DNA of 64,000 bases from assembly GCA_025930755.1 (NCBI GenBank), contig JAICOJ010000009.1, positions 1-64,000 on the forward strand. The letters are read 5' to 3'. The position numbers and the translations under genes are program-made. The notes under the pieces are model-generated. The model was not told the DNA's origin. It worked only from the letters and a program-made list of their open reading frames with translations, and did not search any database. This DNA comes from Gemmatimonadaceae bacterium. Its GTDB lineage: Bacteria; Gemmatimonadota; Gemmatimonadetes; Gemmatimonadales; Gemmatimonadaceae. Shown here one piece after another: positions 13,265 to 41,784 of this stretch (its first letter is position 1; every line of letters begins with the position of its first letter).

Positions 13265-13393
13265 GAGGAACGAGGAACGAGGAACGAGAAGGCGAACAGG
13301 AACGAGGAACGAGGAACGAGGAAGCGGCTGGCCGCCCTCCGCGCGCGGGGCCGTCCTGGCCACTTCCTCGTTCCTCGTTCCTCGTTCCTGTTC
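13265..13393. repeat. Heptamer (GAGGAAC)n inverted-repeat element between yebC and ruvC
   Basis: gaggaacgaggaacgaggaacgag...aggaacgaggaacgaggaacgaggaag / loop / cttcctcgttcctcgttcctcgttcctgttca. Confidence 0.95.
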
Positions 13394-14173: not shown

Positions 14174-14289
14174 CGTAACTGCGAACTGCGAGCTGCGAAC
14201 TAGAACCCCGGGAGGCCTCCATTCGGTGGGCGAAGCGTCCCGGGGTGTTAGTTCGCAGTTCGCAGTTCGCAGTTCGCAGTTCGCAGCTT
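14174..14289. repeat. Heptamer (GCAGTTC/GCAGCTC)n inverted-repeat element
   Basis: aactgcgaactgcgagctgcgaac ... gttcgcagttcgcagttcgcagttcgcagttcgcagc; nested loop palindrome accccggga..tcccggggt. Confidence 0.95.
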
Positions 14290-15546: not shown

Positions 15547-15668
15547 TAACTGCGAACTGCGAGCTGCGAACTAGACACCCGCGAGAGGCCCGCAGTTCGC
15601 AGCTCGCAGCTCGCAGCTCGCAGTTCGCAGCTCGCAGCTCGCAGTTCGCAGCTCGCAGTTCGCAGCTT
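15547..15668. repeat. Heptamer (GCAGTTC/GCAGCTC)n inverted-repeat element, strongly asymmetric arms
   Basis: Left arm about 3-4 units (aactgcgaactgcgagctgcgaac), right arm about 11 contiguous units; lies between divergent genes. Confidence 0.95.
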
Positions 15669-15679
15669 AGATTGACCTC

Positions 15680-17242
15680 ATGCCACTCCCCGCGAAGAGC
15701 ATCCTCTGGGTGGACGACGAGGCGGACCTGCTGGAGTCGCACCGGATCTTCCTCCGCGACAAAGGCTACGACGTCGACTCGGCGACCAATGCCGATGATG
15801 CCGTCGAGATGCTCAGGCGTCGGCCGTACGGCCTCGTGCTGCTCGATGAGCAGATGCCCGGCAAGCGGGGCCTCGAGGCCTTTCGCGAGCTGCGCGACGT
15901 CGATCCGGCGCTCCCCATCGTCATGGTCACCAAGAGCGAGGAAGACACGACGATGCGGGAGGCGATCGGCGTCAACGTGAGCGATTACCTCGTCAAGCCG
16001 ATCAATCCGCGACAGGTGCTCACCGTCGTCACGCGTATTCTCGAGGGCCCGCAGATCCGGCAGCAGGCAGTCGCGCGACAATTCGTCGAGCGCTTTCGCG
16101 CGCTCCAGAATGAGCGCGATCATGCGCTCGACTGGCGAGGCTGGATCGAGCGGTACGGTGAGCTCGTCGACTGGAGTATCGATCTGACGCAGATCGGCGA
16201 GGTGGGACTTCACGAGTCGCTCGAGGGGATGTACCCCAACATGCGCCGCGACTTCGCGGCGTACATTCGGCGCGAGTATCCTCGGTGGCTCCGCGATCTG
16301 GAGGGCGATCGTCCTCCCCTCTCCATCGACGTCGTGGGGGAATTCCTGCTGCCGATCCTCGAGCGCGAGCGTGCGGCGATGTTCGTGGTCGTCGACTGCA
16401 TGCGCCTCGACCAGTGGCGCGTTCTCATGCCACTGCTCGCGCCGATGTTCGAGATCGAGACCACGCACTATTTCTCGATACTTCCCACCGCGACCCCGTA
16501 TTCCCGCAACGCCCTCTTCAGCGGCCTCTTCCCCGGGGAGATCGCCGCGCGCTTCCCCGACTGGTGGGGCGATCGCGAGGACGAGACCCTCAACGCACAC
16601 GAGCGGCAGCTCCTCGAAGCGCAGCTCTCGGAGGGGGGGAAGCCGTACCCGGTCCGGTATGAGAAGATCTCGACGGCCGCCGACTCCGACGATCTCGTCA
16701 GGCGGCTGCCGAGCGCGCTCCCGGCCGAGGGCATTGGCGCCTTCGTCTTCAACTTCGTCGATCTGCTCACGCATGGCCGCAGCGAATCGGCGATCCTGTT
16801 CGAGGTCGCACGCGACGAGATCGCGCTCCGGCAGATCACGCGGCAGTGGTTCCAGCGCTCGGGACTCTTCACCCTGCTTCGTGAAGCGCAGCGGCGGAAG
16901 ATTCCCGTTCTCCTGACGACCGATCACGGCTCGATTCACTGCCTCTCGCCGGCCACGGTGTTCGCGAAGCGCGACGCCACCGCGAACCTGCGCTACAAGT
17001 TCGGCGAGGATCTGCGCGCCGAGCGGCCGGAGTTGGCGCTGCTGTTCACGAACTCGGATGACCTGCGCCTGCCGCGACGAGGCATGGGAGGCAACATCCT
17101 CCTGGCGACGGGCGATTCCTTCTTCGTCTACCCGACCAAGCTGCGCGAGTATCAGACGCGCTACCGCGGATCCTTCCTGCACGGCGGCGCCACTCCGGAG
17201 GAGATGATTCTTCCCATCGCGTTGCTCACGCCGCGCCGGTAG
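15680..17242 (+). CDS. PorX-like bifunctional response regulator / PglZ (alkaline-phosphatase-superfamily) protein
   Basis: N-terminal receiver SILWVDDEADLL..LVLLDEQMPGKRGLEAF..MVTKSEE..YLVKPINPRQ; C-terminal PglZ FVVVDCMRLDQW..NALFSGLFP..TTDHGSIH. Confidence 0.85.
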   Translation: MPLPAKSILWVDDEADLLESHRIFLRDKGYDVDSATNADDAVEMLRRRPYGLVLLDEQMPGKRGLEAFRELRDVDPALPIVMVTKSEEDTTMREAIGVNVSDYLVKPINPRQVLTVVTRILEGPQIRQQAVARQFVERFRALQNERDHALDWRGWIERYGELVDWSIDLTQIGEVGLHESLEGMYPNMRRDFAAYIRREYPRWLRDLEGDRPPLSIDVVGEFLLPILERERAAMFVVVDCMRLDQWRVLMPLLAPMFEIETTHYFSILPTATPYSRNALFSGLFPGEIAARFPDWWGDREDETLNAHERQLLEAQLSEGGKPYPVRYEKISTAADSDDLVRRLPSALPAEGIGAFVFNFVDLLTHGRSESAILFEVARDEIALRQITRQWFQRSGLFTLLREAQRRKIPVLLTTDHGSIHCLSPATVFAKRDATANLRYKFGEDLRAERPELALLFTNSDDLRLPRRGMGGNILLATGDSFFVYPTKLREYQTRYRGSFLHGGATPEEMILPIALLTPRR

Positions 17243-19103: not shown

Positions 19104-20201
19104 GTGCGCCTCCTGTTCTATTACTCGGCACGAGCGTGGTCCGGGGAAGCGCGCGCCTTCGCCGCGGCCGCGCGTGGGCTGCACGCGCGCGGGCATCAGA
19201 TCACCTACGTCTGCAGCCCCGAAGGCACGGTCGAGCAGAAGGTGGCCGCGTCCGGCCACGAAGTCGTGCCGATTCGCCCCGATGGCTGGTGGGCCCTCTC
19301 CGCCCTCCGGCTTCGCCGCGCATTGAAGGGCCGCTTCACCGAAGTCGTGTTCGTGCATACGCCGCGGGAGCACAAGGTCGCATCGCTGGCGACCTTTCTC
19401 GCTGGCCGTGCGGCCGTGATCCGTCGCGTGCCCGCGGGCGCCGCCGCCCAGGTGACGGAGCGGGGCTTTGGGTCGCGACTGGCCGCCGCCGGAGTGCTCG
19501 TCGGCAGCGAGGAAGACCTGCGCGACCTCCCGGTGCTCAAGCGGCTGCGCTTCGAGCCCGCGGCAGCGCCGTTAGGCGTCGACGTCGAGACCTACGACAC
19601 CATCCGCCCGGTTCCCCGCGCGTCCCTGGGCGCCGATGATTCCACCGCGCTCGTCGTCGGCGTTTGCGACCACGGAGCTCGCGCCCGCGCCGCGACGATG
19701 GTTCGCGCTGTGTCGCTCCTCGCGCCCAACCATCCGAACCTGCGGCTCACGCTCGTCGGCCCCGGCTCCGACGATGAGGATCTTCGCATGCACGCCGCGG
19801 CCCTGGGCCTCACGAAGATCGTGACCTTCGCGGGAGAGCGGGAGGATTATCTGGCCGTGTTGCGCGCGGCGGACCTCGGGTGGGTGGTGGCCACAGGCGA
19901 CGCGGCCGCCTTCGCCTGCCTGGATTTCATGGCGATGCGGGTGCCCGTGCTCGCCGAGCGGGGCCCCCTCGCGGGAACCTACGTCGCCGATGGAATTACC
20001 GGGCTGCTCATGCCGCCGACGGACGCCCCGGGGACCGCCGCGGCGCTCGCGCGTCTGCTCGCCCACGATGACCAGCGCGTCGCGATGGGGACGGCCGGCC
20101 GAGCGCGCGTCGCCCGCGAATTCACCGAGGCGGCGCTGCTCGATGGCTTCGAGCGCGCCGCGGCAGCGGCGGCGGACCGCTCGCTCTGGAAGCGGAAATG
20201 A
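19104..20201 (+). CDS. Glycosyltransferase family 4-like
   Basis: GTG start; RLLFYYSARAWSGEARAFAAAARGLHARGHQITYVC ... LRLTLVGPGSDDEDLR..VTFAGEREDYLAVLRAADLGWV. Confidence 0.8.
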   Translation: MRLLFYYSARAWSGEARAFAAAARGLHARGHQITYVCSPEGTVEQKVAASGHEVVPIRPDGWWALSALRLRRALKGRFTEVVFVHTPREHKVASLATFLAGRAAVIRRVPAGAAAQVTERGFGSRLAAAGVLVGSEEDLRDLPVLKRLRFEPAAAPLGVDVETYDTIRPVPRASLGADDSTALVVGVCDHGARARAATMVRAVSLLAPNHPNLRLTLVGPGSDDEDLRMHAAALGLTKIVTFAGEREDYLAVLRAADLGWVVATGDAAAFACLDFMAMRVPVLAERGPLAGTYVADGITGLLMPPTDAPGTAAALARLLAHDDQRVAMGTAGRARVAREFTEAALLDGFERAAAAAADRSLWKRK

Positions 20202-21127
20202 CGCGGCCGGTTCGCCTGGCGCACCGGCTCGAGTACGCCGGGCTCCGCGCCGCGGTCGCTGCGCTCTCGGCGGTCGGATGGCGACGCGCGTCGTCGCTCG
20301 GCGGCGCGCTGGGACGGCTGGGATACCGGCCGTTCGCTGTTCGGCGCGATGTCGTGGAGCGCCAGATCGCCGCGGCGTTTCCCGAGTGGGATGTCGATCG
20401 TGTCGCGCAGGTCGCGCGCGCTTCGTACGACCATCTTGGACGGCTTGCCGTCGAGACCGCGCTCATGCCCTCGCTCGGCCGGGAGCGCATTCTCGATCTC
20501 GTCTCGCGCACGAGCGGGTGGGACCTCGTGGAGCGGGCGATCGAGGCCGGGCGTGGCTTGTTGCTGATCGCGGGCCACTTCGGCAATTGGGAAGTCTCCG
20601 GCGCGTACATTGCCGCTCGAGGCGTCCCCGTCGATGTGATCGTGCGGCGCATGTCCAACCCCATCTTCGATCGGTATCTCAACCAGACGCGCGCCGACCT
20701 CGGGATGACGGTGGTCTACGATGCCGATGCCGTCCGACGCACGACGCGATCGCTCAAGGAGGGACGGGCCATCGGATTCCTCGCCGATCAGGGCGTGCTC
20801 AACCTCGCATCCACCCACGTCCCGTTCTTTGGGCGCCCCGCGAAGACGCCACGCGGACCCGCGGTGTTCACGCTCCGCTACCACGTGCCCACCCTGTTCG
20901 TCGCCGCGATCCGTGAGCCGGATGGACGCTTCCATCTCTCGTTCGAGAACGTGCCTTACGAGGAGACGGGCGACCGCGAGCGCGATGTCGATGGGATCGT
21001 GGCATCCTACACGCGTATCCTCGAGCGCCTGGTGCGGCAGACCCCCGAGCAGTACTTCTGGCAGCACCGCCGCTGGAAGCATCAGCCGGCCGATACGCCC
21101 CCTCCGCTTCGCGATCCCGCGGCATGA
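20198..21127 (+). CDS. LpxL/HtrB-like lysophospholipid acyltransferase
   Basis: LLLIAGHFGNWEVSGAYIAARG..VIVRRMSNPIFDRYLNQTR..IGFLADQGV; ATGA overlap with previous gene. Confidence 0.88.
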   Translation: MTRPVRLAHRLEYAGLRAAVAALSAVGWRRASSLGGALGRLGYRPFAVRRDVVERQIAAAFPEWDVDRVAQVARASYDHLGRLAVETALMPSLGRERILDLVSRTSGWDLVERAIEAGRGLLLIAGHFGNWEVSGAYIAARGVPVDVIVRRMSNPIFDRYLNQTRADLGMTVVYDADAVRRTTRSLKEGRAIGFLADQGVLNLASTHVPFFGRPAKTPRGPAVFTLRYHVPTLFVAAIREPDGRFHLSFENVPYEETGDRERDVDGIVASYTRILERLVRQTPEQYFWQHRRWKHQPADTPPPLRDPAA

Positions 21128-21384
21128 TCGCCGCACCGGAACCGAGGCCCGATCGCTTCCTCTCGGCCTCGGAGCTGGGCGAGTACGCGTATTGTCGCCG
21201 CGCCTGGTGGCTGCGCGCGGTGCGGGGGGTGACGACCGAGACGCAAGGCACGCGGTTCAGCGCGGGCCACGCCGCACATCGCCGGCACGCGTGGTCGCTC
21301 TGGTGGGCGCGCGCGTTAGGCTGGCTTGCGGTGCTGCTCGTCGCGGCGGCGCTCGCGGCGGTGGCGTGGAGCACGTGGCGATGA
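21124..21384 (+). CDS. Cas4-like PD-(D/E)XK nuclease, N-terminal part with C-terminal TM helix (86 aa)
   Basis: RFLSASELGEYAYCRRAWWLRAVRG..GHAAHRRH (N-terminal Cys and His motif I of Cas4/DUF83), then TM ALGWLAVLLVAAALAAVAW. Confidence 0.75.
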   Translation: MIAAPEPRPDRFLSASELGEYAYCRRAWWLRAVRGVTTETQGTRFSAGHAAHRRHAWSLWWARALGWLAVLLVAAALAAVAWSTWR

Positions 21385-21893
21385 TGATCGCGCTCGCCCT
21401 CGTCGGCGCCGCGATTGTGCTCGGCGTCGTGAGCGTGATGCTCCTGCGGCGGTCCGGGGTGCGCGGCCGGATCGTCGCCAGCGATTCGGTGGTCTCGCGG
21501 CCATCGCGCGCGCTTCGTTCCCCGCGCCACGGCATCGTCGGGAAGCCGGACTATCTGGTCGAGGAGCGGGGGCGCATCGCGCCGGTGGAGCTCAAGCCGT
21601 CACGCGAGAGCAATTCGCCATGGCTGCGCGACGTGGTGCAGCTGGCCGCATATTGCCTGCTGCTGGAGGAGACGGAGCCGCGCTTCGCCGGGTATGGCTA
21701 TCTCCGATACGCGAACCGTACCTTTCGGATCGATTTCACCGACCGCGTGCGAGGGGAGCTGCTGCGGACGATCGCCAACATGCGCGCCGACCTGACGGCC
21801 GCGGACGTACCGCCGAATCATCATGACCCGCGCCGATGCGCTCGGTGCATGCTCGTGCGCGTCTGCGGGCGCGCGGTGGTGAGTGGGTCGTGA
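21381..21893 (+). CDS. Cas4-like PD-(D/E)XK nuclease, catalytic part with N-terminal TM helix (170 aa)
   Basis: MMIALALVGAAIVLGVVSVMLLRR TM; GKPDYL, VELKPSR (ExK), QLAAYCLLLEE (QxxxY), C-terminal cluster RRCARCMLVRVCG; ATGATGA overlap with previous ORF. Confidence 0.82.
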   Translation: MMIALALVGAAIVLGVVSVMLLRRSGVRGRIVASDSVVSRPSRALRSPRHGIVGKPDYLVEERGRIAPVELKPSRESNSPWLRDVVQLAAYCLLLEETEPRFAGYGYLRYANRTFRIDFTDRVRGELLRTIANMRADLTAADVPPNHHDPRRCARCMLVRVCGRAVVSGS

Positions 21894-22726
21894 GCGCCGA
21901 GGTGTGGGCCCGACTGTGGCGCGACACCCGGGCGCGGATCGGGCTGATCGTCGTCGCGATGCTCCTGTTGCTCGCCATCCTCGCGCCGCTCCTGGCGCGT
22001 CATGACCCCATTCGCGTCGATCTCCTGCGCCAGCTGCAGCCGCCCTCGGCGGAGCACTGGATGGGGACCGATGTGCAGGGGCGCGACGTGTGGGCGCGTC
22101 TGGTCTACGGAGCCCGGATCTCGCTGGCGGTCGGCCTCATCTCGCAGAGCATCGCGCTGGCCATTGGTCTGACCCTCGGACTCATCGCCGGCTACTTCGG
22201 CCGCTGGATCGACGATCTGGTGATGCGCCTGGCCGATGTCACGCTTGCCTTTCCGACGCTCCTGCTGCTGATCGCGATGGTCGCCGCGCTGCAACCGTCC
22301 CTGATGGTCGTGTTCGTCACGGTCGGCATCGTGGGGTGGGCGGGGATGGCGCGGCTGGTGCGCGGCCAGGTGCTCGTCGTCAGGCAGCTCGAGTACGTGC
22401 ACGCCGCCCGAGCGCTCGGCACCCCCGACTTTCGGATCATCGCGCGCCACGTGCTCCCCAACGTGATCGCGCCAGTGGTCATCGCGACGACGCTCGGCAT
22501 GGCCGGCGCGATCATGGCGGAGGCAGCGCTGTCATTCCTCGGTCTCGGCGTGCAGCCACCGACGCCGAGTTGGGGCGCGATGATCGCCGACGGCCGCGAC
22601 CTGAGCCAGCTCCGCTCGTCGCCGTGGACGTCGCTCTTTCCCGGCCTCGCGATCGGGGTCACGGTCCTCGGCTTCAATCTGCTCGGGGATGCGTTGCGCG
22701 ATGCGTTGGATCCGAGGACGGTCTAG
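21890..22726 (+). CDS. ABC transporter permease (DppC/OppC type)
   Basis: HWMGTDVQGRDVWARLVYGARISLAVGL..EAALSFLGLGVQPPTPSWG; GTG start overlapping TGA. Confidence 0.92.
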   Translation: MSAEVWARLWRDTRARIGLIVVAMLLLLAILAPLLARHDPIRVDLLRQLQPPSAEHWMGTDVQGRDVWARLVYGARISLAVGLISQSIALAIGLTLGLIAGYFGRWIDDLVMRLADVTLAFPTLLLLIAMVAALQPSLMVVFVTVGIVGWAGMARLVRGQVLVVRQLEYVHAARALGTPDFRIIARHVLPNVIAPVVIATTLGMAGAIMAEAALSFLGLGVQPPTPSWGAMIADGRDLSQLRSSPWTSLFPGLAIGVTVLGFNLLGDALRDALDPRTV

Positions 22727-22733
22727 GTTCAAG

Positions 22734-22910
22734 CTGCGAACTGCGAACTGCGAAGTGCGAACGCCAAGGTTAGGGTATTGAACCGGATGGCCCGTGTTCG
22801 AGCTCGCTCCGAATGCAGGTAGCAAACACCTGGGGCTCCTCGACGTCGCGGTTCGCAGTTCGCAGTTCGCAGCTCGCAGTTCGCAGTTCGCAGCTCGCAG
22901 TTCGCAGTCC
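22734..22910. repeat. Heptamer (GCAGTTC/GCAGCTC)n inverted-repeat element, asymmetric
   Basis: Left aagctgcgaactgcgaactgcgaagtgcgaac; right gcggttcgcagttcgcagttcgcagctcgcagttcgcagttcgcagctcgcagttcgcagtc; ~90-nt loop. Confidence 0.95.
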
Positions 22911-31619: not shown

Positions 31620-31770
<151 letters not shown>

Positions 31771-31778
31771 CCTCCGCT

Positions 31779-41721: not shown

Positions 41722-41784
41722 CGCCCCGAGTCGGTTTCCGACTCGGGGCGCCCCTGACCCCTGACTCCTGACTCCTGACTCCTA
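41722..41784. repeat. GC-rich hairpin plus single-arm (AGGAGTC)n heptamer tract
   Basis: cgccccgagtcgg-ttt-ccgactcggggcg followed by cccctgacccctgactcctgactcctgactcct; no left heptamer arm seen. Confidence 0.85.

Follow-up and report, generated by a model that had tools for sequence, protein, structure and literature searches.

Known Cas4-like nucleases are single soluble chains, and the related nucleases Dna2, AddB and AdnB carry three C-terminal cysteines plus one that lies far towards the N-terminus. Solo-Cas4 proteins, which are independent of CRISPR, have been reported from many Chloroflexi (PMC5704561). The text of that report does not mention a split or transmembrane Cas4, and whether its Chloroflexi solo-Cas4 proteins are the B proteins considered below cannot be told. 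No report of a membrane-bound or split Cas4 was found in the literature searched, which left out most subscription papers.

The locus described here encodes two proteins, A and B, which are likely to be the two subunits of one membrane-anchored Cas4-type nuclease, their physical assembly, Fe-S binding and DNA cleavage being inferred. With Cas4 and solo-Cas4 (PF01930, TIGR00372; PDB 7mi4, 8d3l, 4r5q, 4ic1) the pair has in common the PD-(D/E)XK core, the QxxxY motif, the four cysteines and the order of the motifs, and the predicted fold of B is shared with Cas4. Unlike those proteins, A and B are two chains with a transmembrane (TM) helix on each at the cut point. The Fe-S nuclease domains of Dna2, AddB and AdnB have the same nuclease and cysteine layout as A and B together, and Dna2 (5ean) is a Foldseek match; these, however, consist of one chain that is joined to a helicase and lacks a membrane anchor, whereas A/B has no fused helicase, Pfam detecting no helicase domain in either A (86 aa) or B (170 aa). 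The CRISPR Cas4 proteins and Cas4-Cas1 fusions of the same phylum (L014-L036) belong to the same superfamily and all have the N-terminal Cys/His motif, but they are single ORFs in 22 of 22 cases, lack the hydrophobic helix at the cut point and occupy a separate branch of the tree.

A/B departs from the Cas4 family in not being one polypeptide, save for two fusions. The pair does qualify as solo-Cas4, being located outside CRISPR-cas loci, and does not qualify as CRISPR-associated, which would require adjacency to cas1/cas2. No match to Cas1 was found in the host genome, the only Cas4 match in that genome is the one studied here, and cas genes are absent from the recurrent neighbours of the pairs that were examined.

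Organization of the locus

The window, by which we mean the whole stretch of 64,000 nucleotides that was analysed, contains both ORFs where the original prediction had placed them. The features of the pair and of its two adjoining genes are all on the forward (+) strand. ORF A (21124-21384) encodes 86 aa comprising a Cas4 N-terminal half that is followed by a TM helix at the C-terminus; ORF B (21381-21893) encodes 170 aa with an N-terminal TM helix, the Cas4 catalytic core and a C-terminal cysteine cluster. The two genes share an ATGA start/stop overlap (21381-21384), and a similar or the same overlap is found in most relatives. The stop codon of A is TGA (21382-21384) and B may start either at the ATG at 21381, which gives the 4-base overlap, or at the ATG at 21384. 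By direct reading of the sequence, a possible Shine-Dalgarno sequence for B, GGAG, lies within A at 21368-21371, 9 bases upstream of the ATG at 21381.

The gene upstream of A encodes an LpxL-like acyltransferase (20198-21127), which overlaps A by ATGA at its end, and the gene downstream of B encodes an OppC-like ABC permease (21890-22726), which overlaps B by GTGA at its start. Besides the window, the LpxL-like gene is upstream of A only in G001, which is another species of the same genus, and in G242; a permease follows B in G242 as well.

Elsewhere in the window, a protein that combines a PglZ domain and a response-regulator receiver domain is encoded at 15680-17242, directly upstream of the ABC exporter. 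The window also has numerous short, apparently intergenic arrays of tandemly repeated heptamers (13265-13393, 14250-14286, 15591-15667, 22734-22908, 31621-31773 and 41753-41783), which differ in their unit (GAGGAAC, AGTTCGC, CGCAGCT, TCGCAGT, AGGAGTC and CCTGACT).

Cas4 identity of the two halves

In ORF A the motif region SASELGEYAYCRRAWWL...GHAAHRRH is followed, at the end, by a hydrophobic helix. ORF B starts with a hydrophobic helix, followed by GKPDYL, VELK, QLAAY and RRCARCMLVRVC. Against Pfam, B aligns to positions 53-158 of Cas_Cas4 (E 3.8e-9, over the cut-off) and to positions 121-246 of PDDEXK_1 (E 1.5e-7), and with 65.9 bits it is barely over the cut-off of 65 for the NCBI cas4 equivalog. 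Protein A aligns to the first 41-43 positions of the PDDEXK_1/Cas4 profiles with E-values of 0.0028 and 0.064, below the cut-off. The PADLOC models are consistent with this placing of A and B on Cas4. The expectation that profile searches would place B in PD-(D/E)XK thus held, B exceeding both Pfam and NCBIfam cut-offs and having a predicted Cas4/Dna2 fold; the expectation that A would be its N-terminus was met in position, but only below threshold.

Among 63 A proteins, Cys24 (21193-21195), the predicted fourth Fe-S ligand, is conserved in 98% and His52 (21277-21279), the predicted motif-I active-site histidine (GxxxH), in 84%. The histidine is missing chiefly in a diverged group from large Chloroflexota genomes, in which the profile match is weak over this residue. 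In the 67 B sequences, conservation reaches 90% for Asp57 of GKPDY (21549-21551), a predicted metal ligand, 90% and 97% for Glu70 and Lys72 of ExK (21588-21596), 97% and 90% for Gln87 and Tyr91 of QxxxY (21639-21653), and 100% for Cys153, Cys156 and Cys162 (C-x2-C-x5-C, 21837-21866), predicted to be the other three Fe-S ligands. The PD-(D/E)XK motif set is complete only across the pair, with the histidine in A and the Asp, ExK and QxxxY in B, and the four cysteines of an Fe-S nuclease are likewise present only when A, with one, and B, with three, are taken together. One split pair (L148, genome G414) has a B without ExK and QxxxY that keeps the cysteine cluster, and it may be an inactive form.

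An AlphaFold2 model of B built from 15 alignment rows had a pLDDT of 85.7 and was low only in the C-terminal cysteine region, which is what the model would be expected to give with the partner missing. Foldseek matched it to Cas4 (7mi5, E 6e-7) and Dna2 (5ean, E 4e-6) with probability 1.00, and Cas4 8d3q and 8d3l were also among the matches at this probability. The model of A consists of two helices, of which the second (39-85) is membrane-spanning, and its N-terminal part is of low confidence. Searching the PDB with the A profile gave weak Cas4 matches (E 0.12 to 0.43; 8d3l residues 4-63 and 4r5q residues 54-110), which were position-matched to those of B. Since the match of A to solved Cas4 chains is weak, what identifies it as the N-terminal half is its motifs, its position on the profiles and the genetics. 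A single-sequence PDB search with L146, one of the natural fusions described below, returned no match, so that the Cas4 homology rests on the profile and fold of B.

Predicted membrane topology

The predicted TM helices cover about residues 64-82 of A (21313-21369) and 2-23 of B (21384-21449), by both hydropathy and the models. A hydropathy scan, which is a crude TM predictor, detected the segment in 63 of 63 A and 65 of 67 B proteins. Lysine and arginine are enriched on the soluble side (59 to 1 for A, 65 to 1 for B), and by the positive-inside charge pattern this is consistent with a cytoplasmic location of the N-terminal part of A and the C-terminal part of B, a topology that is inferred from sequence. 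As a control, the same scan found no TM segment before the core in 22 ordinary Cas4 relatives; a few of these reach the TM threshold elsewhere, within long C-terminal parts. The claim of a TM helix and positive-inside charge in both halves, first made for this locus only, held across about 60 pairs.

Distribution of the split

The LpxL gene is present in G001 too, again followed by the two ORFs. Differences between the window and G001 at the first, second and third codon positions are mostly at the third (8/8/28 in A and 7/5/19 in the first 59 codons of B), which points to purifying selection in both frames. The split with its overlap is retained in G001, G018, G128, G131, G242, G207 and G310. 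In G018, G128 and G131, from another genus of the family, the pair is just upstream of holA (tested by Pfam in G018), and in G207 and G310 it is present with strongly diverged sequence.

Scanning the genome collection with the B alignment recovered further Gemmatimonadota and a set of Chloroflexota, in which A is upstream in a different frame or one gene off. With an A profile made from Gemmatimonadota only, seven Chloroflexota genomes each gave a single strong A (E 1e-14 to 5e-20). Strong B matches were present in 7 of 395 sampled Gemmatimonadota genomes. Among 400 Chloroflexota genomes, 161 matched the B profile, 119 of them strongly, and 120 matched the A profile. In this set every one of the 85 genomes whose B reached E<1e-45 also had A at E<1e-10 and, conversely, a strong B was found in 90 of the 91 genomes whose A reached that level (Fisher p 1e-74, without correction for relatedness). 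Nine genomes had a strong B without an A match; two of these are fusions and three that were examined (L141, L144 and L147) have a diverged A beside B.

The pair was also found, with a 4-base overlap, in two planctomycete plasmids (Paludisphaera and Singulisphaera), where A is annotated as hypothetical and B as a PD-(D/E)XK nuclease. In the Marinobacter plasmid pMAQU02 (L154:2513-3447) a gene for a Cas4-like core is overlapped by a 'CFI-box-CTERM' gene with the Cas4 N-terminal Cys/His motif. Although the N-terminal motif is present in the first gene there, that gene lacks a clear TM helix and matches nothing in Pfam, and we tentatively regard this as a looser form of the split and a possible further version of it.

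Evidence for two separate chains

B directly follows A in 59 loci. The genes overlap in 34 of them, by exactly 4 bases in 25, and in the others they are at most 225 bases apart. A YkuD-like gene (Pfam tested on L038 only) lies between A and B in L038, L039, L042 and L091. Moreover, in at least ten genomes, checked in fetched DNA, A and B are far apart and both intact, with the TM helix and motifs kept. On a single contig they are separated by about 2.8 Mb in G613, 887 kb in G693 and 182 kb in G754; in G557, G688, G667, G709, G442, G730 and G681 they are on different contigs, both genes lying away from the contig ends. In G403 (Chloroflexota) A is also on a different contig from B. With genes this far apart, A and B must function as two separate polypeptides. 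The recurrence of the pair across phyla, along with these distant copies, indicates that the split is conserved by design rather than the result of a gene having been broken.

Two natural fusions, L135 and L146, are single ORFs in the order A motif, TM, TM and B core. The original prediction had offered one chain with a TM hairpin as its alternative, and such a chain does exist in nature in these two cases. Both fall within the split forms in the tree of B cores, where L146 and the split L144 are sisters (support 100/99); on this basis the L146 fusion most likely arose after the split. The ordinary Cas4 rows form their own group, except for one Bacillus plasmid row. The tree rests on few columns and many of its forks are weak, and a single origin of all split forms is not shown. 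Distance matrices of A and B correlate at 0.84, with at most 0.24 in 500 shuffles, although such a correlation is also expected from common descent alone.

Genomic context and possible role

The neighbours of the pair vary by lineage. In Gemmatimonadota holA is found; nadK, identified by NCBIfam, is downstream in 12-13 loci together with recN, which was recognized from its sequence; rseP is upstream in 19, and an HD-domain protein is a neighbour in 11. Where the genes are unlinked, A is beside smc and B beside rarA or dnaX. Several of these neighbours are replication or repair genes, which is possibly informative but no more than a lead, untested against lineage background. Since the neighbours vary, no single pathway is implied. 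The planctomycete plasmid copies are near an MmeI-like enzyme and genes for Y-family polymerase, or else near a gene annotated as N-6 DNA methylase and a MobF relaxase. A 407-aa protein adjoining a plasmid pair (L150:2021-3244) has no Pfam match, and its C-terminal part resembles, by eye, a restriction-type nuclease fold.

A Translin-like gene was considered as a fixed partner and dropped, being upstream of A in only 11 of 69 loci (L038, L039, L040, L041, L048, L091, L101, L113, L125, L127 and L129) plus L042. The gene has this position in many Chloroflexota. It matches PF01997 in L038, and the L113 copy matches NCBIfam 'haloacid dehalogenase superfamily protein' models below threshold. A phage origin was rejected, as B had no match in 50,697 phage records and a scan of viral contigs found no relative. 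PADLOC matched Cas4 and, weakly, DruK, and nothing else. A general role in the envelope was also dropped because the neighbours are not conserved; the predicted link to an envelope-type operon is weaker and local, retained only in the genus of the window and in G242. The role that we favour, inferred and unproven, is that the pair processes DNA ends at the membrane in connection with replication or repair.

Alternative explanations

One objection is that an ordinary Cas4 has been split by a frameshift, an assembly error or gene decay, and in its favour many of the genomes are draft assemblies and the overlap is short. Against it, the same split is found in many species of three phyla, both frames are under purifying selection, the catalytic residues are conserved, the TM helices are at the split and genes intervene in some loci; the unlinked copies already refute it, and we consider it all but excluded. 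The case that would have refuted the original prediction, homologs that are single ORFs without TM segments, did not arise, the split being common to species, genera and phyla, and the concern that an indel had created it in the window can be set aside. Programmed frameshifting at the overlap could instead yield a single hairpin chain. Hairpin fusions do exist and overlaps are common, but spacings that range from overlap to hundreds of bases, intervening genes, distant loci, and a start codon and possible Shine-Dalgarno sequence of B's own make this very unlikely.

It could also be argued that B alone is the complete nuclease and A a regulator or membrane receptor whose N-terminal Cas4 motif is a mere relic. 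The histidine of A is less conserved (84%) than the residues of B, and the metal-binding acid residues and the lysine are all in B. However, the cysteine of A is 98% conserved, B has only three of the four cysteines, the fusions keep the Cas4 order and A and B co-occur almost without exception, so we regard this as unlikely. The remaining rival concerns the role and fits the two-subunit architecture: a membrane nuclease for defence or plasmid control that degrades incoming DNA. The plasmid copies beside an MmeI-type enzyme, or an N-6 DNA methylase with a MobF relaxase, would suit it, as would a membrane site for DNA entry. On the other hand, the chromosomal copies that were examined have housekeeping or replication/repair genes around them (holA, recN with nadK, smc, rarA, dnaX, rseP) and are outside recognisable defence islands, and neither the phage records nor PADLOC lend it support. 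It is still a possibility.

Proposed mechanism and significance

The reading that we prefer, a nuclease rebuilt from two membrane-anchored subunits, was the main claim of the original prediction and is supported, with assembly and activity inferred. Its computed basis is the conserved split, the TM helices, the charge pattern, the residue conservation, the near-obligate co-occurrence, the unlinking, the hairpin fusions and the Cas4 fold of B. By analogy with Cas4 and Dna2, in which the four cysteines and the histidine must meet, A and B would form one unit. Both would be single-pass proteins of the inner membrane: A would have a cytoplasmic N-terminus and end with its TM helix, and B would begin with its TM helix and have its core in the cytoplasm. 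Pairing of the two helices within the bilayer would join Cys24 and His52 of A with Asp57, Glu70-x-Lys72, QxxxY and Cys153/156/162 of B, and would so complete, on the side facing the cytoplasm, a single Fe-S cluster together with a single PD-(D/E)XK active site. The product would be a membrane-tethered, CRISPR-independent DNA nuclease, probably acting on single-stranded DNA ends like Cas4 and Dna2. A bolder reading, no more than possible, is that the Fe-S cluster and the catalytic site become complete only on the meeting of the two subunits, so that lipid, redox state or this encounter switches cleavage on at the membrane, which would make this a regulated split enzyme that is conserved in at least three phyla.

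Current annotation gives the name 'Cas4' to half an enzyme and overlooks its partner A, which exceeds the cut-off of no Pfam family and is only a hypothetical protein in the planctomycete records. The pair offers a natural two-part system for studying the assembly of Fe-S nucleases, and it raises the question of why some bacteria need DNA cleavage that is located at the membrane.
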